A DNA stretch of 42,623 nt from a virus: the IMG/VR virus record IMGVR_UViG_3300009790_000023, positions 1 to 42,623 of that record; one strand, written 5' to 3'. Shown here in pieces: positions 8,601-36,294 of the stretch; the stretch's first letter is position 1; each line of letters begins with the position of its first letter. The notes under the pieces are model-generated. The model saw nothing but the letters and a program-made list of their open reading frames with translations. It made no database searches and was not told the origin of the DNA. A program made the translations under genes and the position numbers.

Positions 8601-10546
8601 GCAACTATGTAATTAACTCTTAAACTTGGTATCCCTAGTTGCTCCGCTAATTGCCTTCGATTATGACCATTAACAATATAAGTTTTACCATCAGCGGGAT
8701 CTCGCCATACATCAACAGCATCTTCTAAATCAGTATTCCATTTTTGAACACCAGCTAAAGAAGCACCTTTTTGAACACCAACCTCATCTACTCCCTGCTT
8801 GTACTGAAAGCGAAGTGGATCCGTAAATAATTCAGCAAGAGAAGCTACTTGCTGGCCTGCTAAACGATTAGGCAAAACTGAAACACCTTTTATCTCTTCT
8901 AATTTTTTAAAAGCTTCAATTAGATCTAAACGCTTTAATTCAGAAGGCTCCTTACCAGTAAGAGATAAGACATCCAAAACAAATGCTTCATCAGAACTTG
9001 CCATAGCCCTAAGAGTTGGCAAGTCTATTGATTCAAGATCTTCATAATATTTAGACCCAGACAAAGAAGAAGTTGGAGCTGTACTTAAGGAAAACTTTGC
9101 GTCTGGAGCTGCGGCGGTCTGTTCTCTTCCAGTTACATCGGCAACAACTTCTGTTGTATTTTCTCCAGCAGCAGTTCTTTTCTGTATCTCTAATTTGCCT
9201 GCAAGGTCTGTATTGTCTCTAATCGTCTCAACGATAGTGGTTACTTCTGGCTTGCTATTGTCTGCTGGAATATATTTATTAGTTAAAGATGCTTCTGCTT
9301 CCTCCGCAGTCTCAGGCCTTACGGCATCTCCATTCGAGTATTTACCATCAGCATCTTTTTTGATTACACCTTCTTTTTCTAAGAAATCTCTTGTATCTGT
9401 AGCCTTTCTTGTATAAGACTTTTGTACTTTACCTTTTCTATAAGCTTGAGTTACGTTTAGCTGCGCTTCCTTTTTTTTAGTTGCTATTGATTCAAGCAAT
9501 TCTTTGATTTTTATGTTCTGGTCTAGCTTAAAACCGTCAGCCAGATCACCAGCACCGCCAATAAATACAGCTAAAGCGCCATCAATCGGAACTTTTCTGA
9601 AATAAGCTTGCTTTCTGGTGATCCCTTGCTGCATTGCAGGATCCCATTTTTCGCTTAAGAAACTAACAGCACTACCAGTAATCCTTGGATCAGTAGCCAA
9701 TCCTGTCGTCATTTCTTCAATAAGAGAAAAAGCAACACCTTTCCTCACTAATCCCCATCCTGTTTTTGCTGTTCTTGGATCAAATAAAGAAGCAAGACCT
9801 TTCGTGTACTTAAATTTACCTAAATAACCTAAAGCTTTAAACCACGCTGGAGCAGACGCTATCGCTGCAACAAATTCAGTCCTAGCCGCATCTCCTTGTC
9901 TTTCCTCCTTGGTCATTTCACCTTGGAGTTTTGTCGTCTGCTCTCCTGCTCCTGCATAAAAAGCATCGTTTATACGTTGTTCGAGATCTTCAATAGGCTC
10001 TCTAAATCTTGGAAATGTTTCAGCAGCTAAGAAAGAAGCTGTTCCAGTTATTGCAGTTGGTATGCCTAAATAAGCAGTATTCCCCCAATCTCTATTAGGA
10101 GCAATTGCCCTTGTTCCGAGATAAATAGGTCTAGTTACTAACTGACCCCAGTTCTTTTCTTTTATGTTTTCATTTAAAATATTCCACTCAGTTATTGCAT
10201 CGTCTTTACTTCTATCAACGTACATCTTTGCAAAATCTCTAGCAGATAGCTCTCTAAGCTCTGCCTTTGTGTGATCTAAATAAGGCTTGTCTCCTATTTT
10301 TAAATTATTAATTTGCGAAGGATGATAGTCGCCCTGAGTAATCGTATGCCAAAACTTTCGTGCGACGTTTGCTTTTTTCATAACCGAAGCATCGGTCATG
10401 GATTTGGGCAATACATCTCTTAAAGTTTGCTCTTTCTTTGGTTCCTCGACTAATGGCTTAATTACGCCTGGATCTTTTAATTCTTCCTCATCTTCCAGGA
10501 CTTCGTTGCCGAGTTGAGGGGCATCTCCGAAAGGTGTTGTTGTCAT
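5672..10546 (-). CDS. Giant internal virion protein with ParB-like and metallopeptidase motifs (1624 aa)
   Basis: This is the largest gene of the window, in the gp15/gp16 region. Around residues 570-660 there is a ParB/sulfiredoxin-like segment: a DPLRFQ box, then IVNGHNRRQLAEQLGIPSLRV, which matches the GxxRxxA box of ParB-type N-terminal domains. Residues 660-760 are helical, as in the helical part that follows in such proteins. Near the C-terminus is HEAFH at residues 1450-1454 (DNA 6185-6199), with a candidate third zinc ligand E1502 in a QAEAFG motif, together the signature of a zinc metallopeptidase. Residues 850-1250 are highly charged and coiled-coil-like. This combination is known from phage polyvalent proteins thought to be injected with DNA. 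No SLT lysozyme motif is visible. It starts 3 bp after the 750-aa gene's stop. Confidence 0.8.
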   Translation of the reverse strand: MTTTPFGDAPQLGNEVLEDEEELKDPGVIKPLVEEPKKEQTLRDVLPKSMTDASVMKKANVARKFWHTITQGDYHPSQINNLKIGDKPYLDHTKAELRELSARDFAKMYVDRSKDDAITEWNILNENIKEKNWGQLVTRPIYLGTRAIAPNRDWGNTAYLGIPTAITGTASFLAAETFPRFREPIEDLEQRINDAFYAGAGEQTTKLQGEMTKEERQGDAARTEFVAAIASAPAWFKALGYLGKFKYTKGLASLFDPRTAKTGWGLVRKGVAFSLIEEMTTGLATDPRITGSAVSFLSEKWDPAMQQGITRKQAYFRKVPIDGALAVFIGGAGDLADGFKLDQNIKIKELLESIATKKKEAQLNVTQAYRKGKVQKSYTRKATDTRDFLEKEGVIKKDADGKYSNGDAVRPETAEEAEASLTNKYIPADNSKPEVTTIVETIRDNTDLAGKLEIQKRTAAGENTTEVVADVTGREQTAAAPDAKFSLSTAPTSSLSGSKYYEDLESIDLPTLRAMASSDEAFVLDVLSLTGKEPSELKRLDLIEAFKKLEEIKGVSVLPNRLAGQQVASLAELFTDPLRFQYKQGVDEVGVQKGASLAGVQKWNTDLEDAVDVWRDPADGKTYIVNGHNRRQLAEQLGIPSLRVNYIVAKTAEEAKIKGALANIASGSGTGVDAAKFFKSKGFNSIEDLTNLGLPLASGKAAEGLALSKLPDNIFQDFIDGKLTRSKAMALGASEMDEAGMQQAYKMLQSRDMSDGTFAQVIEQAKLSPTIEGDQVDLFGNTETLNLMVEKAKLADRIEKDLKSDKVLWKKVQANKKKLEEGGTKVGKGTTQIVSDTGLAVDQFKAQKYTQTRLSQLLNEGAIELQQGGKIGPIKSRIQQQFVESLGDAELQKAIDLPPAPKPPDPTGDELVKDIAVNALEKGEARAPSTTIPPSPEVEDIDLNKAFTNLSTVDNDEYRKLLETEQRLREEHGRVDESMEADKLTKERTDTGYYEKTYEEKKKAGVLDAFREDIKLTEEFAEIERNTRSMFGIESTKVSDEKLIEIGKMDDKTLAGQIDKFTKKKLTEKKIQNRLKKITDFESKQERFYEINKDMDKQLRAGKDGNRMPTTEEQAALDVEYNEADKILDEREKLRLDKAEQELKDHNVYQALQREKWKREIVNFEVENKKIFEGATGKAFNRLVAAMDRTLGHEWKGGFDTAGDLLNVLDVARRSSEVAVIKALEDFEKVTTSKSGRRLNVDEQFPFIKPFLSKDPEYRAKIRKQKLEKKKLQSSVTGIDYTNGNYDEMYYRRYLKNLQDRKAIMAADSLAEYGARISDELNGRIFQSKVLTNELLTAMKDALHISGIPLNNLKVFDDINLLDKFGPEELARTTAEWDTGRATFISQNPDDPLAKMAAGETGGLYVPIDYSEKVQQSIYLALYPALNQRLGGLLSHAPQGGRPFSWTLYHEAFHGVQDLIKRMNLDAQSLDSVEGITEMVGIIKKHGGNYQPGMSNSEIQAEAFGIWATNRKIKLTKGGVVKTTFERIKKFIQSLRIKYDLMRKKSLGYTDIFEIAAKGNIAKAAAIEGLSDHQLFFMTSKLNAWSHQHAPQLTMRVFEYLETKKADYDNLIFGANNQFTKEGC

Positions 10547-10549
10547 TGG

Positions 10550-12802
10550 TTAAACCCCCAAAAGAACATTTTCAAACAAGCGACTCGTTTGTGCCAGAGC
10601 CGTTGGTCCTGGTGCAGCCGTAAGTATTCCTTCAATCATTCCTTGCGCTTGATTTCCTAAGATTTCTAAGTTTCTTAATTCATCTTCATCGGGGAACCAA
10701 TCTTTAACTTTGGGATTATCTTTGTAGTGATTTAAGTGAATTAATAAGAGCTGTTCTGGACTAATATTGTTATATCTTGTCGCTGCATCTCTGAAATGAT
10801 AATCGTAATTACCAGGCTTATCAGCTTGGTTCTCGTAAATACGCCTAATAGCATCAATGCTATATATAGGTTGTGTCTCTAAACTGCTTAAATCTTCGTC
10901 TTTAGGAGACATTTTATAACCATATTTACCTTCTACGATTACATTTTGTCCTTCTTTTGGAGGGGTTAAATCAAAACTACCAGGCAAAATTCGTTTCATT
11001 ATCTGTTCATTACCAGTAATATCATCAGTAACTTCTCTAACAATATTAGCTACTTCTTGATCTGAAATTGAACCACCTGGGCCTATTTTTTGTAGTCTTT
11101 CATCAACCTCATTGAGCACTCCACTTGTTATTTTATTTGTTATATTTCTAATTCCTTCCGCTTCATCTAAATCATTATTAACCATAAAATCAAGTACATC
11201 TTGATCTCCACCTTCAGATAATACCCTCTTCATAATATCAGGATAGAATCTTTCAGTAATTACTTTAATCTCATCTTTAATTCTTTTATTCATCTCTGCA
11301 TTGTTATACGCTTTATTCTTATCTTCTATTTGAGATTTAAACAGAGCTATTTTCTGTTTGTTAAGTTCTATCTTATATTTAGTAGATGGAATCCTTTCAT
11401 AAAATGAATTAAATTCTTTATTTGCTTGCTCTGGATTCCAAGCATTACCAGAAGTTAAAGACCATTTGTTATACCATTCATTCCATTCTGGATCATTCTC
11501 AAGCTTAACAACTCGCTCCCTTTCATTTAGCGCTGATTCATTTATTTCTTTAATAAAATCAGCCCTTTGTTTTCTATCAAAATTAGGTGCTAATTTATCA
11601 TTTTTATATATATCATCTGTAATTTTATTAATTTTATCCGTATCCCCTTCAACAATAGCGGTCCACAAATCATCACCAAAATTTTCTTCAAAAATTGCAT
11701 ACCCAGTTTTTTGTTCTTCTGTTCTTAATTTATGATAAGACTCCTCAACTTTACTTCTATCAACCTCTAATTCTGCGCCAAATATATCACCTATTAAATA
11801 TCTCATATCCTCGGTTCCATCTCCTCCTGGCTTTAAGCCATGACCAGCAGGCATTAAAGAAAAAAGACTTAATGCTCTAATAGCTCTTGGATCATCTTTG
11901 CTTCTTAGTTGTAGATTTTTTGCAGTCGTAAGTATTGATCTTTTGATCATTGGCAATCCATCTGCGCCAAGACCAGCCTCTAATAATGCTTGCTCTATAA
12001 ACCCGTGAACCTTTTCTTTTAGTAAATCTAAATCTTCATAATTTGGCCCTACTTTATTATTCAACATGATCTGCTCAAGTCCATAAGCAGTTTGATATTC
12101 TTTTGTGTATTTCTTTAATTTTAAATTTGCTTGAAAATGTTTCTCTTGGAAATTTGCAAATTCCTTATTAATTTCTGGTACAACTTTTGTTGTAAAACCT
12201 GGAGCACTTTCATCAATACCAAAAATATTCATCAAGGCCGTTGTTACTCTTGCCTTCGTTTTAAGAACGTCTTGATGACCATGATCTAAAGAAGCTAATT
12301 TTGATCCCTCAGTTGCCCATGCGTGATTAAACATAGGCTTCACAAACTGAGCTGTTATCGTGCTTGCTTGATTTAAAACTCCAGCTCTTCTGTAATAGTT
12401 GAGCTCATCCATTTGGATGCCAGCTATTGCATCCTGTTTCTCTACTTCCCTATTGGTGGTTGCATATTCAATTCCTTTAAATACCTGTTCTCTATTGATA
12501 TTGTCAAAAGCTCTTTGAAGTTGATTTTTACCTTTTTCATATTCATTGCTGGCATACATTTTCATGCCTGCATCCATAGCAGGAATCAACTTTCCAACTG
12601 CTTCAGCTAACTGATCAAAACTGTTGTAACCCTGAACGTTTTGAACATTGCCGCGCTGAATAATATTGATTCCTTTTGGCTGACTAAATTCTCTTAAAAG
12701 ACCAGCGGGAGCAACGTCTTTAACATTAGGTCGGGTAAAAGTATCTACAGGTTTTGCAGAAGGAGTGATTTTACCAGGATCAATTCGTTGTTGTTTAGCC
12801 AT
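10550..12802 (-). CDS. gp15-like internal virion protein (750 aa)
   Basis: By position, directly between the gp14-like gene and the giant 1624-aa gene, this corresponds to T7 gp15, an inner-core protein ejected into the cell. The sequence is long, hydrophilic and predominantly helical, with no signal peptide and no obvious enzymatic motif. The N-terminus (MAKQQRIDPGKITPSAKPVD) is proline-rich, and a FDQLAEAVGKLIPAMDAGM helix follows, a pattern common in gp15-like proteins of marine podoviruses. The start overlaps the stop of the preceding gene as TAATG, implying translational coupling. The assignment rests on synteny more than on sequence motifs. Confidence 0.75.
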   Translation of the reverse strand: MAKQQRIDPGKITPSAKPVDTFTRPNVKDVAPAGLLREFSQPKGINIIQRGNVQNVQGYNSFDQLAEAVGKLIPAMDAGMKMYASNEYEKGKNQLQRAFDNINREQVFKGIEYATTNREVEKQDAIAGIQMDELNYYRRAGVLNQASTITAQFVKPMFNHAWATEGSKLASLDHGHQDVLKTKARVTTALMNIFGIDESAPGFTTKVVPEINKEFANFQEKHFQANLKLKKYTKEYQTAYGLEQIMLNNKVGPNYEDLDLLKEKVHGFIEQALLEAGLGADGLPMIKRSILTTAKNLQLRSKDDPRAIRALSLFSLMPAGHGLKPGGDGTEDMRYLIGDIFGAELEVDRSKVEESYHKLRTEEQKTGYAIFEENFGDDLWTAIVEGDTDKINKITDDIYKNDKLAPNFDRKQRADFIKEINESALNERERVVKLENDPEWNEWYNKWSLTSGNAWNPEQANKEFNSFYERIPSTKYKIELNKQKIALFKSQIEDKNKAYNNAEMNKRIKDEIKVITERFYPDIMKRVLSEGGDQDVLDFMVNNDLDEAEGIRNITNKITSGVLNEVDERLQKIGPGGSISDQEVANIVREVTDDITGNEQIMKRILPGSFDLTPPKEGQNVIVEGKYGYKMSPKDEDLSSLETQPIYSIDAIRRIYENQADKPGNYDYHFRDAATRYNNISPEQLLLIHLNHYKDNPKVKDWFPDEDELRNLEILGNQAQGMIEGILTAAPGPTALAQTSRLFENVLLGV

Positions 12803-22245: not shown

Positions 22246-22439
22246 CAGGCAACCTCCCTTAATTGAAAAACGTCCTCGGTTTGCTCTTCCGACTTTCTTT
22301 TAAGCCAACGAGCAACAGAAGCTTGGCCTGCTTTAAACCAAACTTCTTTTTCGGAAAGATTTATATCAGGACATTTATCAGGAAACTGTTCCTGTAAAGC
22401 AAGAATCAATCTTTCATCAATGGTCGGAAAATAAGACAC
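22245..22439 (-). CDS. Small conserved-looking protein (64 aa), GTG start
   Basis: The start is GTG at 22439 (decoded MSYFPTIDERLILALQEQFP), with GGAGA a few bases upstream. It contains an amphipathic helix, a PDINLSEKEVWFKAGQASVA segment and RWLKRKSEEQ. Small proteins of this type (a DERLVxALxExFP start and a WxxGxxxVVRxL middle) are common beside portal genes of T7-like marine phages. It overlaps the next gene by TGATG. It is the last gene of this leftward block before the oppositely oriented small-terminase gene. The function is unknown to me. Confidence 0.7.
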   Translation of the reverse strand: MSYFPTIDERLILALQEQFPDKCPDINLSEKEVWFKAGQASVARWLKRKSEEQTEDVFQLREVA

Positions 22440-22457
22440 TCTCCAAGGATGTAGACC

Positions 22458-22486
22458 TTTACAGCCTACCGATAATCGGGAATATA
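22458..22486 (+). promoter_or_regulatory. Weak sigma70-like promoter before the small-terminase gene
   Basis: TTTACA at 22458-22463 is followed, after 17 bases, by AATATA at 22481-22486, or after 19 by TATATA. A CCGATAATCGG inverted repeat lies in the spacer. The gap is only 88 bp between two divergent genes, so a promoter for the rightward gene should be in it. The boxes are imperfect, hence the low confidence. Confidence 0.35.
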
Positions 22487-22527
22487 TACCATAGTAGAGA
22501 AGTTATTCCACTTCCCCGTAGAAGTTT

Positions 22528-22791
22528 ATGGATTTACAAGAACAATTAGCAGAGATTCATTCTGAATTGGTAAGTCAAGTACTCGATGATCTAAGAAATG
22601 GAGATCGCAAAGCAAGATCAGACGCAATGGCTCTACTAAAACAAAACAATGTCACTGCTGTTGCGGCTGAAGGTAGCACTTTGAAAAAACTTGCCAACAA
22701 GCTTGACTTCTCAAGCATGGATGACAAGGTAATTCCTCTTAAGATCCCATCGTCAAACGTTGAATCCCTCCATAAGAACGCCCAGAAGTAG
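22528..22791 (+). CDS. Terminase small subunit-like protein (87 aa), opposite strand
   Basis: MDLQEQLAEIHSELVSQVLD is followed by DLRNGDRKARSDAMALLKQNNVTAV and a STLKKLANKLDF tail. This matches the pattern of small terminase subunits of T7-like cyanophages: an N-terminal IHExLxxxLL helix, a second helix ending in LKxNxI/V, then a short linker and a LxxKLPF-like end. Such subunits recognise phage DNA for packaging. Here the gene is on the plus strand, between the small head genes and the large terminase, and its last 53 bp overlap the 3' end of terL in antisense. T7-like phages normally keep it co-directional with late genes. The assignment is by pattern; no search was run. Confidence 0.72.
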   Translation: MDLQEQLAEIHSELVSQVLDDLRNGDRKARSDAMALLKQNNVTAVAAEGSTLKKLANKLDFSSMDDKVIPLKIPSSNVESLHKNAQK

Positions 22792-24514
22792 TTTTCTTCT
22801 TAAAACCAAACGCTATTGAGTCAATGGAACCTGTTGTTTCATCCATCCAGGCTTCTAATTCATCTTCAAATAGCTGATCTTTCCTTGCTTGTTGTTGTAT
22901 TTGCTGGTCCTGGGCCGCAGATTCAACAAAAAATGCACAAGCTATGGCGAGAGCATCGAGCCGATCATCATACGGGATGCAATTTTTTTCCTCTGTCAGC
23001 CTTGAGGCTTGATAAAAAAGGCTGCGTGAATATCCATGTTCAGGATCTTCGTCAGTAAGACGATAATCATTTTTAATTACTCGGCTATTAATAATAAGAC
23101 GATGCTGCTGAATCAAAGGAGCAAGAGTGTCACATAATCTCCGTTCTTTTTGAATGTTATGTCTAACTTCTTCAATAGTGCAGGGATGAGTTCTTACAAG
23201 GTGCGGCTTTAGTAGAGCACTAAACATTCCATCGCCCATATTCGACTCAGCTACCACATAATTAACATCCCATTTCTTGGCTATATCAGCTAAATACCGC
23301 AAAACTTCATCGGCATAGCCCAAAGTAGACCCACCCGACTCAAGCAAAAACATATTTCCATTTAATTCTGCTAAAACTGCCCAAGCTAATTCGTCAGACC
23401 TAACGCCTCCTCTACCAGCGGGATCAATTGCTAAGACACACCGCCAAGATTCGGTTTTTGACACCCATCCATTTTGGAATATTGGGCGATGGTAGAACCT
23501 ATCAGCTCCAAGTCCGACACAAACAAGCTCTTGCAATCTCATATCAGGTTGGTTAGACCATATACAAGTCTCGGGCAGAGCTTTCCCATCAAGATCCATG
23601 ACCATGAGATCCCCAAGCCTGATTGGATACTTGTCTAAAGTAGACAATCGAGTGTTGAGCATGAACTGAAGTTCAAAGCTCGCTTTCGTCATGGATGCTT
23701 TTCTCTGGAGAATGTCCTCATGTCCAAATCTCTCTGGATCAGTCGGCTCTTCCACGAGGCTGGTATTCGAGATGACCTCATGTTCAATCGTCGGATCGAG
23801 GCTGCCCTCGTAGCAGTCGAACTCCTTCGGATAGAGCGCAGGCCAGTAACGAGCAGAATAGTTCCGTTCTCTCACAAGCCTTAAATATATCGAAGTCTCT
23901 GTATGTGGCGTTCCTAAATATAAAATTTTACGGGGCAAAACCTGGCCCTCCTCTGGCTTTATGATACTTTGTATTTCTTCAACAGCGTGTGCAACTCTGT
24001 CTTGTTTTAGCTGTGTAATTACGTTAGCTAAAGTTTCAACATCATCGAGTATGGCACAGGTACATCTTTGTCCAGTTGTTTGACCCATGACACCCATTGA
24101 TCGAACAGACGGAGACTGTTCAACTTGAGCTGGCCCTACATCAAAGGCAACATTTGAAAATCTATTTTCCGGCCCAGGCATAAGACATTGAAGAATATCT
24201 ATTTCTCCAATGCAGCGAAGCATGAAAGACGAAAAGTCAGTTGATTTAACTGCTGTAGCAGAGACAATCAGAATTTTTTCATTCGGATCTACTCTTAATC
24301 TCCATAAAGCATAAAAAGACGCAAGAATTGACTTACCTAGTCCACGAAACGCAACAGTAAGACTTCGATCTGGTCCATTTTGCATCCAATCACAAACAGA
24401 AATCTGCTGCTTAGTTGGGGCATCGGCTAACCCCAACTCTCGCAACAAATAACAAGTGAAATTAGGAAAGCTATCTTTTAACTGAGGTGGTAACTCTTCC
24501 CATAAATTATTCAC
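22739..24514 (-). CDS. terL: Terminase large subunit (gp19-like, 591 aa)
   Basis: The ATPase part has a Walker A-like FRGLGKS at residues 56-62 and a Walker B CAILDDVE at 153-160. The C-terminal nuclease part begins with LAIDPAGRGGVRSDELAW (about residue 365), the first acidic residue of the RNase H-fold centre, and continues with VAESNMGDGMF and the PYDDRLDALAIACAF block near residue 535. Length matches T7 gp19 (586 aa). The start is GTG at 24514, overlapping the upstream stop as GTGA. The 3' end overlaps the plus-strand small-terminase gene. Confidence 0.95.
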   Translation of the reverse strand: MNNLWEELPPQLKDSFPNFTCYLLRELGLADAPTKQQISVCDWMQNGPDRSLTVAFRGLGKSILASFYALWRLRVDPNEKILIVSATAVKSTDFSSFMLRCIGEIDILQCLMPGPENRFSNVAFDVGPAQVEQSPSVRSMGVMGQTTGQRCTCAILDDVETLANVITQLKQDRVAHAVEEIQSIIKPEEGQVLPRKILYLGTPHTETSIYLRLVRERNYSARYWPALYPKEFDCYEGSLDPTIEHEVISNTSLVEEPTDPERFGHEDILQRKASMTKASFELQFMLNTRLSTLDKYPIRLGDLMVMDLDGKALPETCIWSNQPDMRLQELVCVGLGADRFYHRPIFQNGWVSKTESWRCVLAIDPAGRGGVRSDELAWAVLAELNGNMFLLESGGSTLGYADEVLRYLADIAKKWDVNYVVAESNMGDGMFSALLKPHLVRTHPCTIEEVRHNIQKERRLCDTLAPLIQQHRLIINSRVIKNDYRLTDEDPEHGYSRSLFYQASRLTEEKNCIPYDDRLDALAIACAFFVESAAQDQQIQQQARKDQLFEDELEAWMDETTGSIDSIAFGFKKKTTSGRSYGGIQRLTMGS

Positions 24515-27488: not shown

Positions 27489-27633
27489 AGCTTTGGTAGG
27501 TCACTCATTATTATTAATGGGGGGTGTAGTCATACTCCCCGCTTTTATTTATTTAGTGATGTTCCTACTGGAGCCGTTTGTTGTTTTTGGATTTGGATCT
27601 TATTTGATATGGACATGCCTGAAGAAAAATTAA
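27466..27633 (+). CDS. Small membrane protein, GTG start (55 aa)
   Basis: The GTG at 27466 is preceded by AAAGGAGGT at ideal spacing, the best ribosome site in the window. It gives MQKKDLPKALVGHSLLLMGG, then two hydrophobic stretches (about residues 13-34 and 36-50) separated by a glutamate, ending TCLKKN. It is probably an inner-membrane protein with one or two passes. Candidate roles are superinfection exclusion or a holin-like function, but neither is shown. It overlaps the following winged-helix gene by 25 bp. Confidence 0.7.
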   Translation: MQKKDLPKALVGHSLLLMGGVVILPAFIYLVMFLLEPFVVFGFGSYLIWTCLKKN

Positions 27634-27965
27634 ATGCTTTCTCTTTGTTGCTAAAAACATTGAGACATAACAGCAAAAGACATACATGCCCTTCGGCGCT
27701 CCAGGTCGAAGTGCTTTTACATGTAGCGGTTAAGCCTAGAACCTATGAGGAATTGGCAACCTTAACCAATACATCTAATGGGCCTATCTCCAGAGCAATT
27801 GCAAGTATGGCCCCAAGAGTTCATAAAGGGGAATTTATTATGCCCAACATTTATTTATTGAATAGAGACTATGACTCTTCAAAGAAAAGGTTCAAGGTAT
27901 CTCTATCTACGCCTGGGAAAGAATTGATGGCAGGAGTTGGCTTATTTAGTTCTACGGGGGCGTAA
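27609..27965 (+). CDS. Winged-helix (MarR-like) small regulator 1 (118 aa)
   Basis: Residues 25-70 form a helix-turn-helix pattern: CPSALQVEVLLHVAVKPRTY, then EELATLTNTSNGPISRAIASMAPRV, where the TSNGPISRAI helix would be the recognition helix. A wing-like strand pair (IYLLNRDYDSSKKRFKVSLS) and a TPGKELM helix follow, as in MarR-type proteins. The start could be 27609 or the second ATG at 27615. A similar 105-residue protein lies 270 bp downstream, immediately before the integrase. This suggests control of the integrase or lysogeny decision; the DNA target is unknown. Confidence 0.7.
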   Translation: MDMPEEKLNAFSLLLKTLRHNSKRHTCPSALQVEVLLHVAVKPRTYEELATLTNTSNGPISRAIASMAPRVHKGEFIMPNIYLLNRDYDSSKKRFKVSLSTPGKELMAGVGLFSSTGA

Positions 27966-28231: not shown

Positions 28232-28549
28232 ATGGATTTATCTAAACTCGCTACAGCTCTTGAAGCATTGGGCTCTCTTGCCCCAGGTAACTTTCCGGTG
28301 CATCACGCACAGGTTCTTTTATTCATTGCGGAAAAAGGGAGTTGCACGTATCGAGATATAGAAGAAAGGTTTGATGTAACAAATGCGTCAGCCTCAAGAA
28401 TTGTCCACACCCTCAGTGAAACTGTTCGCCATAGAGAGACTTGTTTAGGGCTCTGTGAGATCTATATAGACCCAGAGGAAGGAAGAAGATACAGAGTCAG
28501 GCTCTCTAAAAAAGGCAAAGCAAAGATCAGATCACTTGAGGGTATCTAA
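28232..28549 (+). CDS. Winged-helix (MarR-like) small regulator 2 (105 aa)
   Basis: The protein has a helical N-terminus (MDLSKLATALEALGSLAPGN), then HHAQVLLFIAEKGSCTYRDI and EERFDVTNASASRIVHTLSE, a helix-turn-helix with TNASASRIVHTL as recognition helix. The strands YIDPEEGRRYRVRLSKKGKA form a wing with the typical L-S-x-K-G-K end of MarR-type domains. It is similar in layout to the gene at 27609 (both start with a short helix, then a cysteine-containing loop before the HTH), so the two may be paralogues. It ends 18 bp before int, so both could be on one message. Confidence 0.75.
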   Translation: MDLSKLATALEALGSLAPGNFPVHHAQVLLFIAEKGSCTYRDIEERFDVTNASASRIVHTLSETVRHRETCLGLCEIYIDPEEGRRYRVRLSKKGKAKIRSLEGI

Positions 28550-28567: not shown

Positions 28568-29605
28568 ATGGCCCACGTTATAAATACAAGCGTCACCCGC
28601 CGGAAAATTGGCTGGGTGGTAGATGTTAAATACAGTGACGGGAAAAGAAAGCAATTAAGTAATAAGAAATGGACGAAAAAAGAAGCGATAGCCAAGGAAC
28701 TTTCTATTCAAATGCTCGATTCCTCTATGCCTAGAGCTGGAGCAGAAGGGTTGTATGTCCTTCAACAAGGTTTTAATGACGCAGTTAAATATGTTTGGTC
28801 AGATTGTGAGGACGGGAAAACTCTTAAAGGCCGAGGAAAATGTGTATTAGATTTCTTTGGGCCTAATACTCCTATTGATTCCATAAATGCAGGCAAAGTA
28901 ATTGAGTACAGGAAATATTTACAAGAAAGAAAAGATAATTCAAATTCAACAGTCAATTACAAGATAAGCGCACTTCGAGTAATGAGAGAAATGGCAATTG
29001 TGCATGGAGGACTCGAAAGCGTACCTGAATTGCCAAAAAATTTAAAAATCAACAAAAAGAAAATTGAGGTTTGGGAAGACTGGGAAAGAGAGGCAGTCGA
29101 GCAATATTTAATAAAGATTTCGAGAAAAGATGTTGCTAGGCATTTTGAATTTCTATGTGAAATGGGATGCAGGCCCATCGAAATGGAAAGAACAATAAAA
29201 GCTAATTACAACTTAAACGTCTTGCCTCCAACAGTATGTTTTTTTAAGGCAAATAATGACAATAAAAATGGAAATAGAACCTTACCTTTAACGCCAAAAG
29301 CTCACAGAATGGTACTTCAACAGATGCTTGATATGCGACCAGGGCAAAAGCAAGTCTGGCCTTTAACATGCGACGCTCTTAGATTCCAAATAGAAAAAGC
29401 ATGTCGAGAATTAGATATTGAAAAGAGTTCAGTAGTGAAGATTACAAGACATACCTGCGGATCACGTTTAGGCAACGACGGATGCACAGCCCTAGAGATT
29501 GCAAACTGGTTGGGCCACTCTTCAACTCAAATGTGCGAAAAGTACGTCAGGATGGATAGTGAAAAACATGCGACAGCATATAGAATCTTATCGACGCGGG
29601 TCTAG
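28568..29605 (+). CDS. int: Tyrosine recombinase integrase (345 aa)
   Basis: The catalytic domain shows R202 (GCRPIE), a probable beta-hairpin lysine (K227 or K233), R294 in TRHTCGSRL, H317 in WLGHSS and the nucleophile Y326 in EKYVRMD. The usual histidine of the H-x-x-R box is lysine here (K291). The N-terminal 60 residues form an arm-binding-like domain (RRKIGWVVDVKYSDGKRKQL) and 90-150 a core-binding helical domain. The last codons and the stop lie inside the tRNA at 29596-29668, the usual int-attP arrangement. Int would join phage and host DNA at a tRNA gene. Marine T7-like phages of this type are mostly seen as lytic, so whether it integrates is open. Confidence 0.93.
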   Translation: MAHVINTSVTRRKIGWVVDVKYSDGKRKQLSNKKWTKKEAIAKELSIQMLDSSMPRAGAEGLYVLQQGFNDAVKYVWSDCEDGKTLKGRGKCVLDFFGPNTPIDSINAGKVIEYRKYLQERKDNSNSTVNYKISALRVMREMAIVHGGLESVPELPKNLKINKKKIEVWEDWEREAVEQYLIKISRKDVARHFEFLCEMGCRPIEMERTIKANYNLNVLPPTVCFFKANNDNKNGNRTLPLTPKAHRMVLQQMLDMRPGQKQVWPLTCDALRFQIEKACRELDIEKSSVVKITRHTCGSRLGNDGCTALEIANWLGHSSTQMCEKYVRMDSEKHATAYRILSTRV

Positions 29606-29668
29606 CGATCTGGTGAACGCACCAAACTCATAATTTGGCTCAGGCGAGTTCGATCCTCGCGACCCGCA
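29596..29668 (+). tRNA. tRNA with CAU anticodon (Met or Ile2), overlapping int; probable attP
   Basis: A full cloverleaf of 73 nt can be drawn. The acceptor stem is GCGGGTC/GACCCGC with 7 perfect pairs. The D arm has a GCG/CGC stem and GG in the loop. The anticodon arm is CCAAA/TTTGG around CTCATAA, the variable loop is CTCAG, and the T arm is GCGAG/CTCGC around TTCGATC. The discriminator is A and no CCA is encoded. The G1-C72 pair and the lack of three G-C pairs in the anticodon stem argue against an initiator. The first ten bases are the end of int. Such tRNA sequence next to int normally marks attP, but usually only the 3' half is kept; here all of it is intact. Confidence 0.88.
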
Positions 29669-29888: not shown

Positions 29889-32324
29889 TTGCATTTGCAA
29901 GCGCGATTTGTTGAGTTGCAAGATATTCGGACCCTTGAAGAGGAGCAATTAACACGACAATTTCGTGCGGAAAAAAGAGCTGAAGAAACACATAAAAGTA
30001 ATGAAAGAAAACTTAAACAGATAGGAAAAGAGAGCGCATTAATTTATGGCAGGAAATTATATGGATTATTAGTTGATGAATTAAGCAGCCGATTAAATAA
30101 AACTTTTATTGAGTTTGTAGAGAATCCAAACAAGGCAAGATTTCATGGAGCTGCGATTCCATTCTTTGATCCTTTTAAGTCTCCAGAGCACGTTGCAACC
30201 ATCGCCCTGGTCGCGACCCTTGATCAATTAAGTAGGAAACAAAGAATTGCCACTTTCTGTCAGGGGCTAGGAGCTGCGGTTGAAAAAGAAATCCGATTAA
30301 TGAGGCTGGCTGATAAAAGTCCCGTGGAACTGCGGCACTTAATGAGGCAAGGCTTGAGCCGGAACAAGATCAGCACAATGGAAATAATGCGGAAAATGGG
30401 ATGCCCCGTTCTCCCTTTTAATGATTTAAGCAGGCTTCATATTGGTCAGTTCCTTTTAGATCACCTGATCCATACAGGTTTGATCAAAGTTGTTACTCGA
30501 AAGATTGGTAGAACTACACCCAAATTTGTATTTCCTACTGATCACGCTGAGAAAGTTATCAAGAGCTGCCCACCCTCAACTTATAAGGTGGCTTACTCGG
30601 CAATGGTATCTCCTCCAGTTCCTTGGCCTGGACTATATGGAGGAGGAAGATTAGGTAATGAAGAGAGTTTCGTTAGAGTCCCAATTCACGACGCTGAAGA
30701 AAAAGAAACCACAGCAATAGAGCATTACAGGCAAGCAGACTTAACAAAGACATTTGTAGCGACAAATCACCTCCAATCTGTTGGACTTCACGTTAAAGGG
30801 GATGTAATCAAGTGCCAGAGGAATACATGGGAGAACGGAACAGAGGCATTGTGGCCTTGCGCGAAGGTTCCTAAAGATGTTCCTGAACGGTTAGGGCAAG
30901 ATCCAGCTCCAGAGGATTTAAAGATCAGGAATCGTCTTGCTTCGATGGCCCATAGAGACAGAGAGCAGAACAGGCCTCAAAGAATCAAAATTGAACGCTC
31001 GTTACAAGAGGCCGAAGCATTAGCAGATAGAACTGTTTACCAGGCTTATCACGCTGACTTCAGGTCCAGGCTTTATACGTCCAATAAATATGTATCCAGC
31101 CAAGGCCCAGACTATGAAAAGGCCATGCTGGACTTTGCTGAGAAATTACCAGTTAATGACGAGGCTTTTGATTGGTTATTGAAAGGAGCTGCCGGACATT
31201 ATGGACATGGAAGAAAATCATGGGATGAACGCCTGAATTGGGGAAGAAAGAATATTGATTTGATGAAAGCAGCGGCAGAAGATCCACTTGGAAGGCTTGA
31301 ATTGTGGCGAAATGCTAACGATCCCTGGCAATTCTTACAGGCTTGCAAGGGGGTGAAAGGGGTACTTGAAACAGGTAAAACAGGATGCCCCGTAAGGTTT
31401 GATCAGACCACCTCAGGCTGCGGGATAATTGCGGCCCTGTTGAGGTCAGAAAAGGTTGGGAGGGAGTGCAATTTATTTGGCGATGAACGCAGGGATCTTT
31501 ACACCCTTGTCGCTGAGAAAGTTACAGAAAGATTGGTCCACGACCTTCAATTCGGTGAAACAAAAAACAAAGCGTTAGCAGAAATATGGCTTCAGAAAGG
31601 AATTACTAGGTCTTTATGTAAGCAGCCAATACTTGCAGCTCCTTATGGCGGTTCATATATGTCCTTGTGTGATGCCTTAGTTGAAAGGCTCGACGAGCAC
31701 CTGGGCTATGTCCCTCTAGAAAATTTCACTTACGAAGTTGCTATCCCTGCAAAATATTTGGCGAGTCATTTATGGGCTGAAACAAAAATGAGAATTAAGC
31801 CTTGCCTTGATTTCAAACAATGGCTTCACAAAGTAACGAGAAAAGTAATGGCGAAAGGTTACGCCCTGGAATGGACAACTCAAAGCGGATGGCCCATGAA
31901 GATTGCAGATAGAGAACCACAGATTAAAAGGATTCAGACAATGTTATTCGGAAAACATTCAACGATGAATATTAAAGATCAACCAAAAGATGCACCTTTA
32001 TGTGCGACACAAGCCAATAAAGGAATAGCCGCTAATTGGACACATTCTTGGGATTCTGCCTTTTGCGTAAACTTCGTTTACAAGGCCGTGGAACAAAATA
32101 TACAAGTGCTTACAAATCACGACTGTTTTGCGGTACATGCGGCCAATGCTGGGGTAACTCATAAGACACTCCACGACACATTTAACGAACTATATGCACC
32201 CAATTGGTTGATAGGTTTTGTGGACGAAATACAGATGTCTACGGGGTTATCACTGCCTGACATACCTAAACAAGGCAGTCTCGACCCAAGACTAATTGGA
32301 TCAAATCCTTATTTATTTTCTTGA
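29889..32324 (+). CDS. Single-subunit phage RNA polymerase (811 aa), non-AUG start
   Basis: T7 RNA polymerase signatures are clear: catalytic D505 in RFDQTTSGCG (T7 D537), K578 in CKQPILAAPYGGS (T7 K631), Y586 in the same block (T7 Y639) and D745 in TNHDCFAVH (T7 D812). At 811 residues it is somewhat shorter than T7's 883. It would transcribe middle and late genes from its own promoters. The start is unclear. There is no in-frame ATG in the region coding the N-terminus: the first candidates after the stop at 29856 are TTG at 29889, 29895 and 29913, and none has a good ribosome site. It lies directly right of attP. Confidence 0.93.
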   Translation: MHLQARFVELQDIRTLEEEQLTRQFRAEKRAEETHKSNERKLKQIGKESALIYGRKLYGLLVDELSSRLNKTFIEFVENPNKARFHGAAIPFFDPFKSPEHVATIALVATLDQLSRKQRIATFCQGLGAAVEKEIRLMRLADKSPVELRHLMRQGLSRNKISTMEIMRKMGCPVLPFNDLSRLHIGQFLLDHLIHTGLIKVVTRKIGRTTPKFVFPTDHAEKVIKSCPPSTYKVAYSAMVSPPVPWPGLYGGGRLGNEESFVRVPIHDAEEKETTAIEHYRQADLTKTFVATNHLQSVGLHVKGDVIKCQRNTWENGTEALWPCAKVPKDVPERLGQDPAPEDLKIRNRLASMAHRDREQNRPQRIKIERSLQEAEALADRTVYQAYHADFRSRLYTSNKYVSSQGPDYEKAMLDFAEKLPVNDEAFDWLLKGAAGHYGHGRKSWDERLNWGRKNIDLMKAAAEDPLGRLELWRNANDPWQFLQACKGVKGVLETGKTGCPVRFDQTTSGCGIIAALLRSEKVGRECNLFGDERRDLYTLVAEKVTERLVHDLQFGETKNKALAEIWLQKGITRSLCKQPILAAPYGGSYMSLCDALVERLDEHLGYVPLENFTYEVAIPAKYLASHLWAETKMRIKPCLDFKQWLHKVTRKVMAKGYALEWTTQSGWPMKIADREPQIKRIQTMLFGKHSTMNIKDQPKDAPLCATQANKGIAANWTHSWDSAFCVNFVYKAVEQNIQVLTNHDCFAVHAANAGVTHKTLHDTFNELYAPNWLIGFVDEIQMSTGLSLPDIPKQGSLDPRLIGSNPYLFS

Positions 32325-32382: not shown

Positions 32383-32393
32383 ACACACTATTG

Positions 32394-32969
32394 ATGGGGG
32401 CATCAACCTTGGAACTCTACAAAACACCGCTAGGTGAAGCACGATGGTTTAAATGTTTAGGTGAAGCCAGAAAGGCATACGACGACGGCAAGCCTGACGA
32501 GTGGACAATGGATTTGTTACACGATGAAAACGATAGAGCTTTCAAAAAGTGGTACGAATCTATGGAAGATAAGTTCTACGAATTACACGGAAAAGATGCC
32601 AAAAAACATACTTATTGGTTTAACTGTTTTCCAGACAAAGAAGATCCAACTAAGTCTATTACTAGATTTAAAAAGGTTTGTTGGGTTAATGACAACGGCA
32701 CAAAAACTGTTGGCCCTAATGTTATTGATTCGACTTGTGAAAAGTGGCCTGTTAATAAAGAAATAGGCAATGGATCTAAGGTCATCGTTGGCTACACCAT
32801 AAGAAAGTGGGGTAACAAATCAGGATGTGGAATGACATTTGATCCTGTAAAAATAATGGTTATGGATTACGTGGAGTATTCAGGTGGTTCTGTCCCTTCT
32901 GATGATGAGTTCTTTGGCAACGTCCAGGGCGGCTATTCATTAAAGGAAGAAGCTGAAAAAGCCTTTTGA
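32394..32969 (+). CDS. Single-stranded DNA-binding protein-like (gp2.5-like, 191 aa)
   Basis: By position, between RNA polymerase and the resolvase, this matches the gp2.5 slot of T7-like phages. The N-terminus GASTLELYKTPLGEARWFKC is typical of cyanophage SSB-like proteins. The middle has strands (TRFKKVCWVNDNGTKTVGPN, SKVIVGYTIRKWGNKSGCGM) that fit an OB fold, and the C-terminus is acidic (DDEFFGNVQGGYSLKEEAEK). The start is ATG 32394; an in-frame TTG lies just before. The stop overlaps the next ATG as TGATG. It would coat single-stranded DNA during replication. Confidence 0.82.
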   Translation: MGASTLELYKTPLGEARWFKCLGEARKAYDDGKPDEWTMDLLHDENDRAFKKWYESMEDKFYELHGKDAKKHTYWFNCFPDKEDPTKSITRFKKVCWVNDNGTKTVGPNVIDSTCEKWPVNKEIGNGSKVIVGYTIRKWGNKSGCGMTFDPVKIMVMDYVEYSGGSVPSDDEFFGNVQGGYSLKEEAEKAF

Positions 32970-33343
32970 TGCTGAAGTTTAAGCAGATTGATTTACCTAT
33001 ACGTCCAATATCTAAGCCAAGACCAAGATCATTTATGGGCCAAAAGCGTCCATACAATCCTCCTCAATACAAGAGTTGGTTAAAAGAAGCCAAGGTTCAT
33101 TTGAAAGAACAATGGAAACTTGAACCACTCACAAAAGTACACCGATTAGATATTTTCTTTCGTGGTGCAGAAATGGGAGATCTTGATAACAAATCTGGCT
33201 CAGTTATGGACGCAGCTAAAAACATTCTGTGGACAGATGACAGCGTAAAAGTCATCCCTCACCTCAATTTATCTTTTACAAAAGTGAAAATTAAAGACTC
33301 TCACATCATTATCCAAATCACTTGGGAGGTTGACGATGATTAG
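32969..33343 (+). CDS. RusA-like Holliday junction resolvase (124 aa)
   Basis: It begins with a PISKPRPRS motif, then carries GDLDNKSGSVMDAAKNILWT followed by DDSVKVI. The D-x-D-N (D71, D73, N74), D81 and D90-D91 pattern is the RusA-family active-site arrangement. T7 has an unrelated endonuclease I (gp3) in this position, so RusA probably replaces it in resolving branched replication intermediates before packaging. The length is usual for the family (about 120 aa). The start at 32969 overlaps the SSB stop; TTG at 32966 is not needed. Confidence 0.88.
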   Translation: MLKFKQIDLPIRPISKPRPRSFMGQKRPYNPPQYKSWLKEAKVHLKEQWKLEPLTKVHRLDIFFRGAEMGDLDNKSGSVMDAAKNILWTDDSVKVIPHLNLSFTKVKIKDSHIIIQITWEVDDD

Positions 33344-33533
33344 ATGTCCTCATTGTGGGCATGAAGAATCAAAAGTTGATAGCCAGCCTAAAAGTTCCAA
33401 TGGGGAAATTAGGCGTTATCGCATTTGTAAAAAGTGCCACAGAACATTTACCACTCTTGAATATTTAGCAATTAACGCTGGTAAGACAAGAGGTTTGGTT
33501 CCCGATATTCCAGTAAGAGGGGGTGATGGGTGA
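33336..33533 (+). CDS. Zinc-ribbon protein, NrdR-like N-terminal domain (65 aa)
   Basis: The start is ATG 33336 with GGGAGGT upstream. MIRCPHCGHEESKVDSQPKS, then NGEIRRYRICKKCHRTFTTL carry two CxxC pairs, the layout of the NrdR zinc ribbon (CPxC ... RRRxCxxCxxRFTTxE). The ATP-cone that follows in true NrdR is missing, and no ribonucleotide reductase gene is in the window. It sits between resolvase and primase and overlaps both (8 bp each). It might bind DNA as a small regulator or as a primase accessory; the function is inferred only. Confidence 0.8.
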   Translation: MIRCPHCGHEESKVDSQPKSSNGEIRRYRICKKCHRTFTTLEYLAINAGKTRGLVPDIPVRGGDG

Positions 33534-35109
33534 ATCCCGTTTTCTTCGTCACGCTCCTTGCGATTCCTGTAACAGCAGCGACGCTCTTGCGATCTACACA
33601 GATCACACCTTTTGCTTTAACTGCCAAAAGTACACGAAAACAGAAGAAGGAGAAGAAGTTGAAAAAACTTCCAGACCGAAACCTGTTCGGCCAATGATCG
33701 ACGTTGATCTAACCGTCCCCTGGGATGCAGATCACTACAGAGGGATACCTAAAAAAGTCCTTGATCAATACGGCGTTTACAAATATGCCGATGGAGTGGC
33801 CTTTCAATACAGGGACAAAAAAGGCGTAAACATTGCACAAAAAATCAGAGATGGAAAAACTTCTTGGAGAGGAGATGCAAAGAAAGTCGCAGGGTTTGGT
33901 TCACATCTCGCAAATCCTAGCCACCACGATGCAATCGCAATTTGCGAAGGCGAAATGGATGCGCCAAGTATCTACCACTCCACCAGAGGCACAGTCGTAG
34001 GAATTTCAGTTCCAAATGGAGCTCAAAATGCAGGGAATTTCGTCAAGAAACACATTGATTTCTTTAGTGCTTTTAAAACTATCTATATCGCCACAGATAT
34101 GGATGAGCCTGGAGAAAATGCAGCCAATGATCTCGTAAGTCTTTTTGAAGCCGGAAGAGTTAGGCGTGTTGTCTTTCCCAAGAAAGATGCCAACGACACT
34201 CTGCAAGAACTAGGAAGTCATGCAGTTAATGAAGCCATTAAAGCAGCCAAGGAGCTGCGACCTGATGGGATTAAATCTGCATCTACTTATGCAGGCTTAG
34301 TCAATAAACCACCAGAGAGAAAGGCTACAAATTGCGCTTTTGCATTTTGGAATGACAAGACACCTTGGTATGACAATCAGCTCATCGTATTAATTGCGGG
34401 GTCAGGTATTGGTAAGACAACGTTTGCAAGGGCGTTGGCATTACATGACATCGAACAACGCATAAAAGTGGGATGGATTGGCCTTGAAGAAACAGCCGAG
34501 GAAGCAGTCTTTCGTTTCGTTGGTCAAGCAGCAGGAATCCAAATTCATGCCAGAGAAAATTATGCAGGGCTAACTGATGAGCAAATTCAAAACATTGCCC
34601 AGGCTGACAAGTTTGTTACTGGCTCTGGATACCTTGAGTTATTTGATCACTTTGGATCACTTGATGAAAAGGTCATCCTCCAGCGGATGAATTACATGGT
34701 CAGAAGTCTTGGCTGCCAACACATTTACTTAGATCATTTAACGATTTTAGGAAGTGGATTAGCACAAGACACAAGGCAGTTAGACGCTCTAGTTACAAAG
34801 ATTAGAAGCTTTATCGCGGCTACTAAATGCACAGTATTCGCTATCAGTCACCTTAATCGCTCTTCTTCTGGAGAGAACTTTGAGAACGGAGCCGCCCCAG
34901 AGTTGCACAACATTAGGAACTCACATTCAATCGTTCAACTTGCCGACACGATATGGGCCTTAAACAGATCAAGAGGATCCAACCTTACTCACTCGAAATG
35001 TTTGAAAAACCGCATGTTGGGCCGAACTGGCTATGCAGGCTCCTTCGAGTTCGACGAAAAAACTCAACAACTAGCTCACAAATGGCACGACCAGGACACG
35101 CAGTTCTGA
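33526..35109 (+). CDS. Primase-helicase (gp4-like, 527 aa)
   Basis: The N-terminal zinc site is C12, C15, C30, C33 (CDSC ... CFNC). The TOPRIM primase domain shows ICEGEMDAPSIY (about residues 147-158) and YIATDMDEPGENAA. The helicase domain has Walker A AGSGIGKTTF at about residues 292-301, Walker B HIYLDHLTIL near 405 and a later SHLNRSSSG loop. This is the T7 gp4 architecture and length (566 aa in T7). It primes and unwinds DNA at the fork. The start is ATG 33526 rather than the in-frame GTG before it; it follows AGAGGGGG. Normally a DNA polymerase gene follows; here it does not. Confidence 0.95.
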   Translation: MGESRFLRHAPCDSCNSSDALAIYTDHTFCFNCQKYTKTEEGEEVEKTSRPKPVRPMIDVDLTVPWDADHYRGIPKKVLDQYGVYKYADGVAFQYRDKKGVNIAQKIRDGKTSWRGDAKKVAGFGSHLANPSHHDAIAICEGEMDAPSIYHSTRGTVVGISVPNGAQNAGNFVKKHIDFFSAFKTIYIATDMDEPGENAANDLVSLFEAGRVRRVVFPKKDANDTLQELGSHAVNEAIKAAKELRPDGIKSASTYAGLVNKPPERKATNCAFAFWNDKTPWYDNQLIVLIAGSGIGKTTFARALALHDIEQRIKVGWIGLEETAEEAVFRFVGQAAGIQIHARENYAGLTDEQIQNIAQADKFVTGSGYLELFDHFGSLDEKVILQRMNYMVRSLGCQHIYLDHLTILGSGLAQDTRQLDALVTKIRSFIAATKCTVFAISHLNRSSSGENFENGAAPELHNIRNSHSIVQLADTIWALNRSRGSNLTHSKCLKNRMLGRTGYAGSFEFDEKTQQLAHKWHDQDTQF

Positions 35110-35330
35110 ACTGGAATCAGCTCAACCGAGCCCAGGCAGTATTCATCTTTTTCCGAGCATCGCACTGGAAACAAGCAATGGTTACTGAAATGTACCCAAC
35201 CTCATGCACCGTTATCTATCAAGAAAATGACAGAGACCACTCAACAAGAATCGTTGACCTCGAAAACATCCGTAGCGTCCGAGAAGTTGACGGAGAGCCA
35301 ACTGATTCTGGTGAAAGCCCTGAAGTATAA
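35082..35330 (+). CDS. Small protein, unknown (82 aa)
   Basis: MARPGHAVLNWNQLNRAQAV continues FIFFRASHWKQAMVTEMYPT, then TVIYQENDRDHSTRIVDLEN. The strand-rich middle ending in VDLENIR is reminiscent of small SH3-like domains found in phage replication modules. Its start lies 28 bp inside the primase-helicase end in another frame, and there is no strong ribosome site. It occupies the place where DNA polymerase would be expected but is far too small. I cannot name a family. Confidence 0.62.
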   Translation: MARPGHAVLNWNQLNRAQAVFIFFRASHWKQAMVTEMYPTSCTVIYQENDRDHSTRIVDLENIRSVREVDGEPTDSGESPEV

Positions 35331-35439
35331 GGCTTCTGAAAATTATCGGGAAGCTCATGTAGCTAAAGATTCAGTTGCCTCCTATTGGCATGACGGCTAT
35401 ATCACAGCCCTTAATCATGTCTTGGATGCTTACGGATGA
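35227..35439 (+). CDS. Small protein, unknown (70 aa, start uncertain)
   Basis: The C-terminal half (ALKYKASENYREAHVAKDSV, then ASYWHDGYITALNHVLDAYG) looks like a genuine two-helix protein. The start could be ATG 35227, which would overlap the preceding gene by 104 bp, or a later GTG at 35311, giving about 42 residues. The stop overlaps the next small frame as ATGA. It may be an accessory protein of the exonuclease or replication module, but that is only from position. Confidence 0.5.
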   Translation: MTETTQQESLTSKTSVASEKLTESQLILVKALKYKASENYREAHVAKDSVASYWHDGYITALNHVLDAYG

Positions 35440-35534
35440 ACGCTTCCGAAAAAATCGCCCACGCAGAGGAGCGAATACGCCAACTCAAACTCTTAATCAA
35501 ACATTGGAAAAAACATGAAAAAAGTTTTCTATGA
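35436..35534 (+). CDS. Tiny helical protein (32 aa)
   Basis: The ATG at 35436 overlaps the previous stop (ATGA). The frame MNASEKIAHAEERIRQLKLL, then IKHWKKHEKSFL is an amphipathic basic helix and ends 20 bp inside the exonuclease gene. It could be only a translational coupler for the exonuclease. The support is the ATGA overlap and helical composition. Confidence 0.4.
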   Translation: MNASEKIAHAEERIRQLKLLIKHWKKHEKSFL

Positions 35535-36294
35535 CATCGAGCCTGATGCTTATCGGGCCATGACCTCCGCAGAATATGAGTGCGAGTGGAGTCCAGAAGT
35601 ATGGACTTATCAAACAAATCTAGATGAAGCTAAACATGCTGTTACCGCAGAGATTGATCGCGTCCAAAAACAATGCCCTGACCACGAAATACTCCTGGCC
35701 CTGGGCGACTCCAGTAACTTCAGGTACGGTGTCTATTCCAATTACAAATCAAACAGACGTAAGTTTAGAAAACCAGCAGGGTATTCAATATTACGGCAAT
35801 GGCTACGTGACACATTTGAAGTCATCTCGCTTCCATTAGCTGAAGCGGATGATGTTGTAGGAATCCTTGCTGATGAACAAAATGAAGATGTTATTTATTC
35901 CAGAGATAAAGATCTAAAAACTATTCCAGGGAACCACCTAGACGCTGAAGGCAATATTGAAAAGATTCAACAGTTTGATGCAGATCACGCTTTTTATCGA
36001 ACGATTTTAACGGGCGATGCTACTGATGGATTCCCTGGATTAAGAGGTTTTGGCAAGGTAACTGCAACCAAACTGCTTGATGGATGCACAAGCGAACTAG
36101 CTATGTGGGAGAAGGTTAGAGGAGCCTATCTAAAAGCAAGCGCTAAAGATCCAGAGACACCAGAGATCCTCTCTCAAGCTAGATGCGCGAGGATCTTAAG
36201 ACCAGGAGAATATGATTTTACGGCTGAGAAACCAATTGAGTGGCAACCACCAACGTCTATCGAAGGCGTTTTTATTCCTACATACCACGATTAA
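35515..36294 (+). CDS. 5'-3' exonuclease (gp6-like, 259 aa)
   Basis: This is a FEN/PIN-type nuclease. LLALGDSSNFRYGVYSNYKS carries the arch-region lysine/arginine pattern. LAEADDVVGILAD (E110, D112, D113) and IYSRDKDLKTI (D131, D133) supply acidic metal ligands. TGDATDGFPGLRGFGKVTA (D168, D171) is the helix-3-turn-helix. In T7, gp6 removes RNA primers and degrades host DNA for recycling. It is directly after three tiny frames and 3 bp before the next gene. The length (259) is a bit under T7's 300. Confidence 0.92.
   Translation: MKKVFYDIEPDAYRAMTSAEYECEWSPEVWTYQTNLDEAKHAVTAEIDRVQKQCPDHEILLALGDSSNFRYGVYSNYKSNRRKFRKPAGYSILRQWLRDTFEVISLPLAEADDVVGILADEQNEDVIYSRDKDLKTIPGNHLDAEGNIEKIQQFDADHAFYRTILTGDATDGFPGLRGFGKVTATKLLDGCTSELAMWEKVRGAYLKASAKDPETPEILSQARCARILRPGEYDFTAEKPIEWQPPTSIEGVFIPTYHD

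Follow-up and report, generated by a model that had tools for sequence, protein, structure and literature searches.

The replisome of phage T7 consists of gp5/thioredoxin, gp4, and gp2.5, and the C-terminal tail of gp4, of which a DF end forms part, contacts gp5 (PMC12593628, PMC5997990). The MPP-C cyanopodoviruses (P-SCSP1/P-SCSP2; Cai et al. 2022) are T7-like phages of Prochlorococcus without a DNA polymerase gene, and the question of how a phage of the T7 type replicates with no polymerase of its own was raised for them (PMC9860041). Here, we analyzed IMG/VR record IMGVR_UViG_3300009790_000023 over its full 42,623 nt (the window), which is an essentially complete T7-like (Autographiviridae) phage genome lacking gene 5. 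It carries gp4-, gp2.5-, and gp6-type genes and an RNA polymerase (RNAP) gene, but it differs from T7 in the missing gp5, in gp4 and gp2.5 tails without a C-terminal DF, and in RusA replacing endonuclease I. By RNAP, by capsid, and by a six-gene tree, its closest kin are cultured S-SRP02 (PMC8790148) and the uvMED G9 genomes S37-C6, S31-C1, and S38-C3 (PMC3861242), together referred to as the G9 clade, for which no published report of a missing polymerase was found. A polymerase-less T7-like cyanophage as such is of an already known kind. Apparently new are a second polymerase-less clade, its misnamed exonuclease, the loss of helicase-primase in half of it, the patterns of its protein tails, and its probable assignment to Prochlorococcus.

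A preliminary description of this DNA had claimed that the polymerase gene is absent from an otherwise T7-like order of RNAP, single-stranded DNA-binding protein (SSB), RusA, primase-helicase, and exonuclease genes. The gene coordinates agree with that order (Table 1), and profile searches of all frames bore out the absence. The models DNA_pol_A, DNA_pol_B, and DNA_pol3_alpha had no match in the six-frame translation of the window, whereas positive controls were detected. A hidden Markov model (HMM) made from 12 T7-like phage polymerases likewise found nothing in the window; the 12 polymerase-bearing genomes scored 1e-174 or better with it, being the same 12 from which it was built. A Pfam scan of the 44 window genes gave no DNA polymerase family among the best 25 families matched, the other 19 being weaker. 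The gap between the gp4 and exonuclease genes measures 405 nt. The three small frames described for this interval stood in part: one encodes a conserved small protein that had been overlooked, with homologues in 60 G9 loci and four complete genomes and no match in MPP-C or polymerase-bearing loci, and another (34953-35330), overlapping the end of gp4 in a different frame, is probably spurious. The window also carries T7-type genes for capsid, portal, tail tube, and terminase which, together with its single-subunit RNAP, mark it as a member of the Autographiviridae. The window ends show no terminal overlap, and a tail-fibre frame is open at both of them, its halves being off by one base. A relative (G001; 42,503 bp, 90% identical) spans this junction with 2,709 nt as compared with ~2,650 in the window. 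The sequence missing at the ends, which the preliminary description had wanted searched, thus amounts to less than ~100 nt inside one gene and leaves no space for a polymerase gene of ~1.7 kb.

Table 1. Features in and next to the replication module of the window
Feature	Position	Strand	Basis or remark
Tyrosine integrase	28568..29605	+	Pfam 6e-06, just below cut-off; HMM 5e-94
tRNA-Met, candidate attP at integrase 3' end	29596..29668	+	ARAGORN
T7-type single-subunit RNAP	29889..32324	+	Pfam RNA_pol 6e-49
gp2.5-like SSB	32391..32969	+	PHROG 112 7e-06; iterative HMM
RusA Holliday-junction resolvase	32966..33343	+	Pfam RusA 2e-08
NrdR-like zinc-ribbon protein without ATP cone	33330..33533	+	Pfam Zn_ribbon_NrdR 5e-12
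gp4-type primase-helicase (zinc motif, Toprim, DnaB_C)	33523..35109	+	
Slot of family-A DNA polymerase in T7-like relatives, no polymerase here	35110..35514	+	Gene order of Syn5, S-TIP28, HTVC134P
Conserved small protein, YWHDGY..A motif	35227..35439	+	G9-clade-specific
5'-3' exonuclease, gp6-like	35515..36294	+	Pfam 5_3_exonuc_N 4e-10

IMG/VR was scanned with the RNAP, yielding more than 90 relatives, 68 of which span the module through the exonuclease. All 68 lack the polymerase, and DNA_pol_A had no match in the whole records of 13 and a further 20 members of the clade. Comparator loci collected by the same method do carry a polymerase (37/37 in the MPP-A/B scan and 39/39 in the HTVC/CRP scan). 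Thus, the absence is a property of the clade and not an artefact. The window shares gene content with the uvMED genomes and S-SRP02 and matches the G9 module, in the order MarR, integrase, RNAP, SSB, RusA, NrdR ribbon, gp4 (in part of the clade), and exonuclease; its RNAP is 57% identical to that of S37-C6 and 33% to that of S-SRP02.

The preliminary description had mentioned a cyanopodovirus lineage without DNA polymerase, to which the window might belong or of which it might be independent, and had proposed a tree for the decision. That lineage is MPP-C, and the window is not a member of it. In a tree from six genes (portal, capsid, tail tubes A and B, TerL, and exonuclease), the window grouped with S37-C6, S31-C1, S38-C3, and S-SRP02 at 100/100, and P-SCSP1a and P-SCSP2 formed a separate branch. 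MPP-C resembles the window in possessing RNAP, gp4, and exonuclease and in a gp4 tail without DF, and an integrase and a weak ribbon of the NrdR type occur in P-SCSP2 as well. The two differ in genome size (37.3-37.9 kb for MPP-C, 42.6 kb for the window) and in the SSB tail, which keeps DF throughout MPP-C but not in the G9 clade, and RusA was not found in P-SCSP1a or P-SCSP2. The polymerase-bearing phage P-RSP2 sits with the G9 clade at 100/100, its polymerase gene adjoining gp4 and exonuclease. A single clade of all polymerase-less phages was rejected (approximately unbiased (AU) test, p = 0.00087), and two changes are forced given P-RSP2. The polymerase was therefore probably lost independently of MPP-C, a reading of the tree that rests on the single genome P-RSP2. 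A tree of RNAP alone, without P-RSP2, was dropped for counting losses, its backbone being unresolved. A further polymerase-less T7-like genome, S39-C11 (AP013549), adjoins the G9 clade in the six-gene tree; its gp4 ends in RTPS and its SSB in ILND.

The genes labelled 'DNA polymerase I' in S-SRP02 (22389-23129) and S37-C6 (20750-21481) are homologues of the window exonuclease, and the 'DNA polymerase I' of the S-SRP02/G9 records thus turns out to be an exonuclease. In the S-SRP02 paper, ORF34 bears this name, and 'DNA polymerase' was used in its tree (PMC8790148); ORF34 is the exonuclease homologue. A gene of S-SRP02 labelled 'DNA polymerase III beta subunit' (10903-11607) was considered as a sliding clamp and rejected. 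Its Pfam match covers 32 residues with an E value of 0.0065, below the cut-off, and the label is unsupported.

The clade falls into two halves, a division that the preliminary description had overlooked. The half that includes the window keeps gp4 together with a short NrdR-like ribbon, whereas in the other (36 module-complete loci, S38-C3, and S-SRP02) the primase-helicase is missing altogether. S-SRP02 has been propagated in culture (latent period ~24 h; PMC8790148), and a phage lacking both enzymes is therefore viable. The gp4-less half has a longer ribbon protein (~185-210 aa) with a conserved helical C-terminal domain, which weakly matches PHROG 678 'replication initiation O-like' (9/28 members, best E value 0.005); a fold search with the extended protein matched the NrdR ribbon and nothing else. 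Immediately downstream lies a second conserved protein of ~175 aa (e.g. L104:4799-5320 and homologues; 42 sequences), which occurs in this half only. It had no family match, and a fold search returned no significant match except the S38-C3 homologue; several viral fold matches below the threshold were named replisome organizer or G39P and are suggestive only. Lambda and SPP1 borrow the host replisome by loaders of the O/P or G38P/G39P type, and the same strategy is proposed here for the gp4-less half. The likeness consists of the weak O-like PHROG match and the sub-threshold replisome-organizer matches, loader homology being not significant. Unlike phages that borrow in this manner, the window retains its own helicase-primase.

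The protein tails that would contact a polymerase were altered as well. The window gp4 ends in DTQF rather than DF. Among 17 initial genomes, gp4 mostly ended in DF where a polymerase was present and never where it was absent, and this pattern, noticed on those 17, was then tested on new loci. There, gp4 ended in DF in 37/37 polymerase-bearing MPP-A/B and 17/35 HTVC/CRP loci, as compared with 0/32 polymerase-less G9 and 0/33 MPP-C loci; after thinning at 80% RNAP identity, the counts were 29/43 with and 0/19 without polymerase. The window SSB ends in ...EEAEKAF, which is neither the T7-type DF nor the bacterial xPF of the tip acidic-acidic-x-P-F. Across the G9 clade, the SSB ended in DF in none of 68 loci and in PF in 44. 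In the gp4-less half, PF was present in 31 of 36 loci, nearly always after two acidic residues ([DE][DE]xPF), and PW in four. DnaG, Pol III chi, PriA, and exonuclease I all bind to DDDIPF, the tip of bacterial SSB (PMC5872125). All 11 Prochlorococcus SSBs examined end in IPF or VPF, preceded by acidic or Asn/Ser residues (e.g. DEEIPF, DDEIPF, NEDVPF). The SSB of the gp4-less phages has exchanged its tail for this bacterial tip, which Prochlorococcus SSB also carries. The SSB tail as a general mark of polymerase loss was ruled out, because MPP-C retains DF in 33/33 loci.

We consider it probable, at about 0.75, that the host polymerase replicates the genome in this clade. Of the two possibilities in the preliminary description, a host polymerase or an unrecognised enzyme, host use is the likely one. 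In the window phage, transcripts of the phage RNAP would supply the first primer, gp4 would unwind the DNA and prime, and a host polymerase, most likely Pol III holoenzyme, would extend the chains. The gp2.5-like SSB, exonuclease, and RusA would anneal, trim, and resolve the products to concatemers for packaging. For the gp4-less half, we propose that the O-like-extended ribbon, the second conserved protein, and the host-type SSB tail hand the entire fork to host DnaB, DnaG, and Pol III. A wider scenario is put forward tentatively and at somewhat less than even odds: the S-SRP02/G9 clade would have dismantled the T7 replisome stepwise, polymerase first and helicase-primase later, its SSB tail shifting from the T7 docking end DF to one that imitates the tip of host SSB, and would have gained both an O-like domain on the zinc-ribbon protein and a loader resembling G39P, thereby recruiting the entire host replisome.

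Several points weigh against these readings. The window SSB tail is AF and not PF, so that the SSB argument suits the relatives better, and a beta-clamp-binding motif was not found in the window replication proteins. Decay alone may account for the lost gp4 tail. On the tree, the tail states form clusters, and the polymerase was lost once or twice, which makes for few independent events; when the gp4 and SSB tails were compared with polymerase presence in an independent-pairs test, one usable pair only was left. Finally, we infer the identity of the host enzyme, Pol III rather than Pol I. Host DNA polymerase I, a family-A relative of T7 gp5, might instead have been co-opted to extend gp4-primed DNA. 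It belongs to the same family as the lost enzyme and was one of three options proposed for MPP-C (PMC9860041), where it is also described as mainly a repair enzyme. The gp4 tail no longer has its DF end, and the SSB tip of the gp4-less relatives is of the bacterial type, a binding site for DnaG, Pol III chi, and PriA (PMC5872125), so that we regard Pol I as an unlikely substitute and Pol III as the preferred one.

A further explanation is that MPP-C and the G9 clade inherited the polymerase-less state from one shared ancestor and that P-RSP2 regained the gene. One change suffices in the RNAP tree, with a backbone support of 19, and NrdR-like ribbons occur in both clades. With P-RSP2 removed, the backbone of the six-gene tree is open, and one origin of the polymerase-less state is allowed in 27% of the bootstrap trees. 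As P-RSP2 groups with the G9 clade at full support and keeps its polymerase beside gp4 and exonuclease, and as the AU test rejects a single clade (p = 0.0009), a single origin appears doubtful, and independent loss is favoured. That the polymerase was dropped in assembly or lies beyond the contig ends could be suspected from the missing terminal overlap and the tail-fibre frame shifted by one base. With an identical junction in 68/68 relatives, a relative that bridges the ends, and agreement of cultured S-SRP02 and four uvMED genomes, the chance of such an artefact is negligible. A highly divergent polymerase could also hide in a large unassigned gene (e.g. 2217-5678, 5672-10546, or 10550-12802); the first of these has no Pfam match, and the MPP-C authors were unable to exclude the same for their phages (PMC9860041). 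The candidates belong to the late strand and are flanked by the tail-tube and tail-fibre genes, a region in which relatives have virion genes, none of the A, B, and C models matched in six frames, and the altered gp4 tail fits a genuine loss, which together render this explanation very improbable.

T7-like cyanophages are counted with DNA polymerase as the standard marker. A second polymerase-less clade with many environmental relatives would escape it. Within the G9 clade, genomes with gp4 and genomes without it form a graded series, one member is in culture, and the short SSB-tip peptide makes recruitment of the host replisome directly testable.

The candidate phage attachment site (attP) points to the host. 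The 42-nt 3' part of the tRNA-Met has exact matches in 24 Prochlorococcus genomes and otherwise only in a related phage contig that had been assigned to a metagenome-assembled genome (MAG). On this evidence, the window phage probably infects Prochlorococcus. The attP logic was also used in an earlier study, where group G9 was left without a host (PMC3861242). Contig L032 of the Gammaproteobacteria MAG MED656 is a phage of the G9 clade (87% over 2.7 kb). In Prochlorococcus AG-404-B19 (L036:2905-3138), a 45-nt copy of the tRNA-Met 3' end adjoins the tRNA, like an integration scar.

NrdR is a repressor of ribonucleotide reductase genes, and a full NrdR was present in 11/11 Prochlorococcus genomes searched. 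The NrdR-like ribbon was found in 68/68 G9 modules and 0/76 polymerase-bearing modules; 23/33 MPP-C modules match the model, which is weaker evidence, the model having included P-SCSP2, whose own Pfam score of 25.1 bits is below the cut-off of 27.2. As a guess, the phage ribbon, which has no ATP cone, might disturb the action of host NrdR.

Two adjacent MarR-type regulator genes (27609-27965 and 28232-28549; both PHROG 9665) lie upstream of the window integrase. In three polymerase-bearing cyanophages (L050:10928-12693, L057:14149-15896, and L058:28498-30257), the polymerase is divided between two frames, one for exonuclease and, overlapping it, one for polymerase, possibly by a programmed frameshift.

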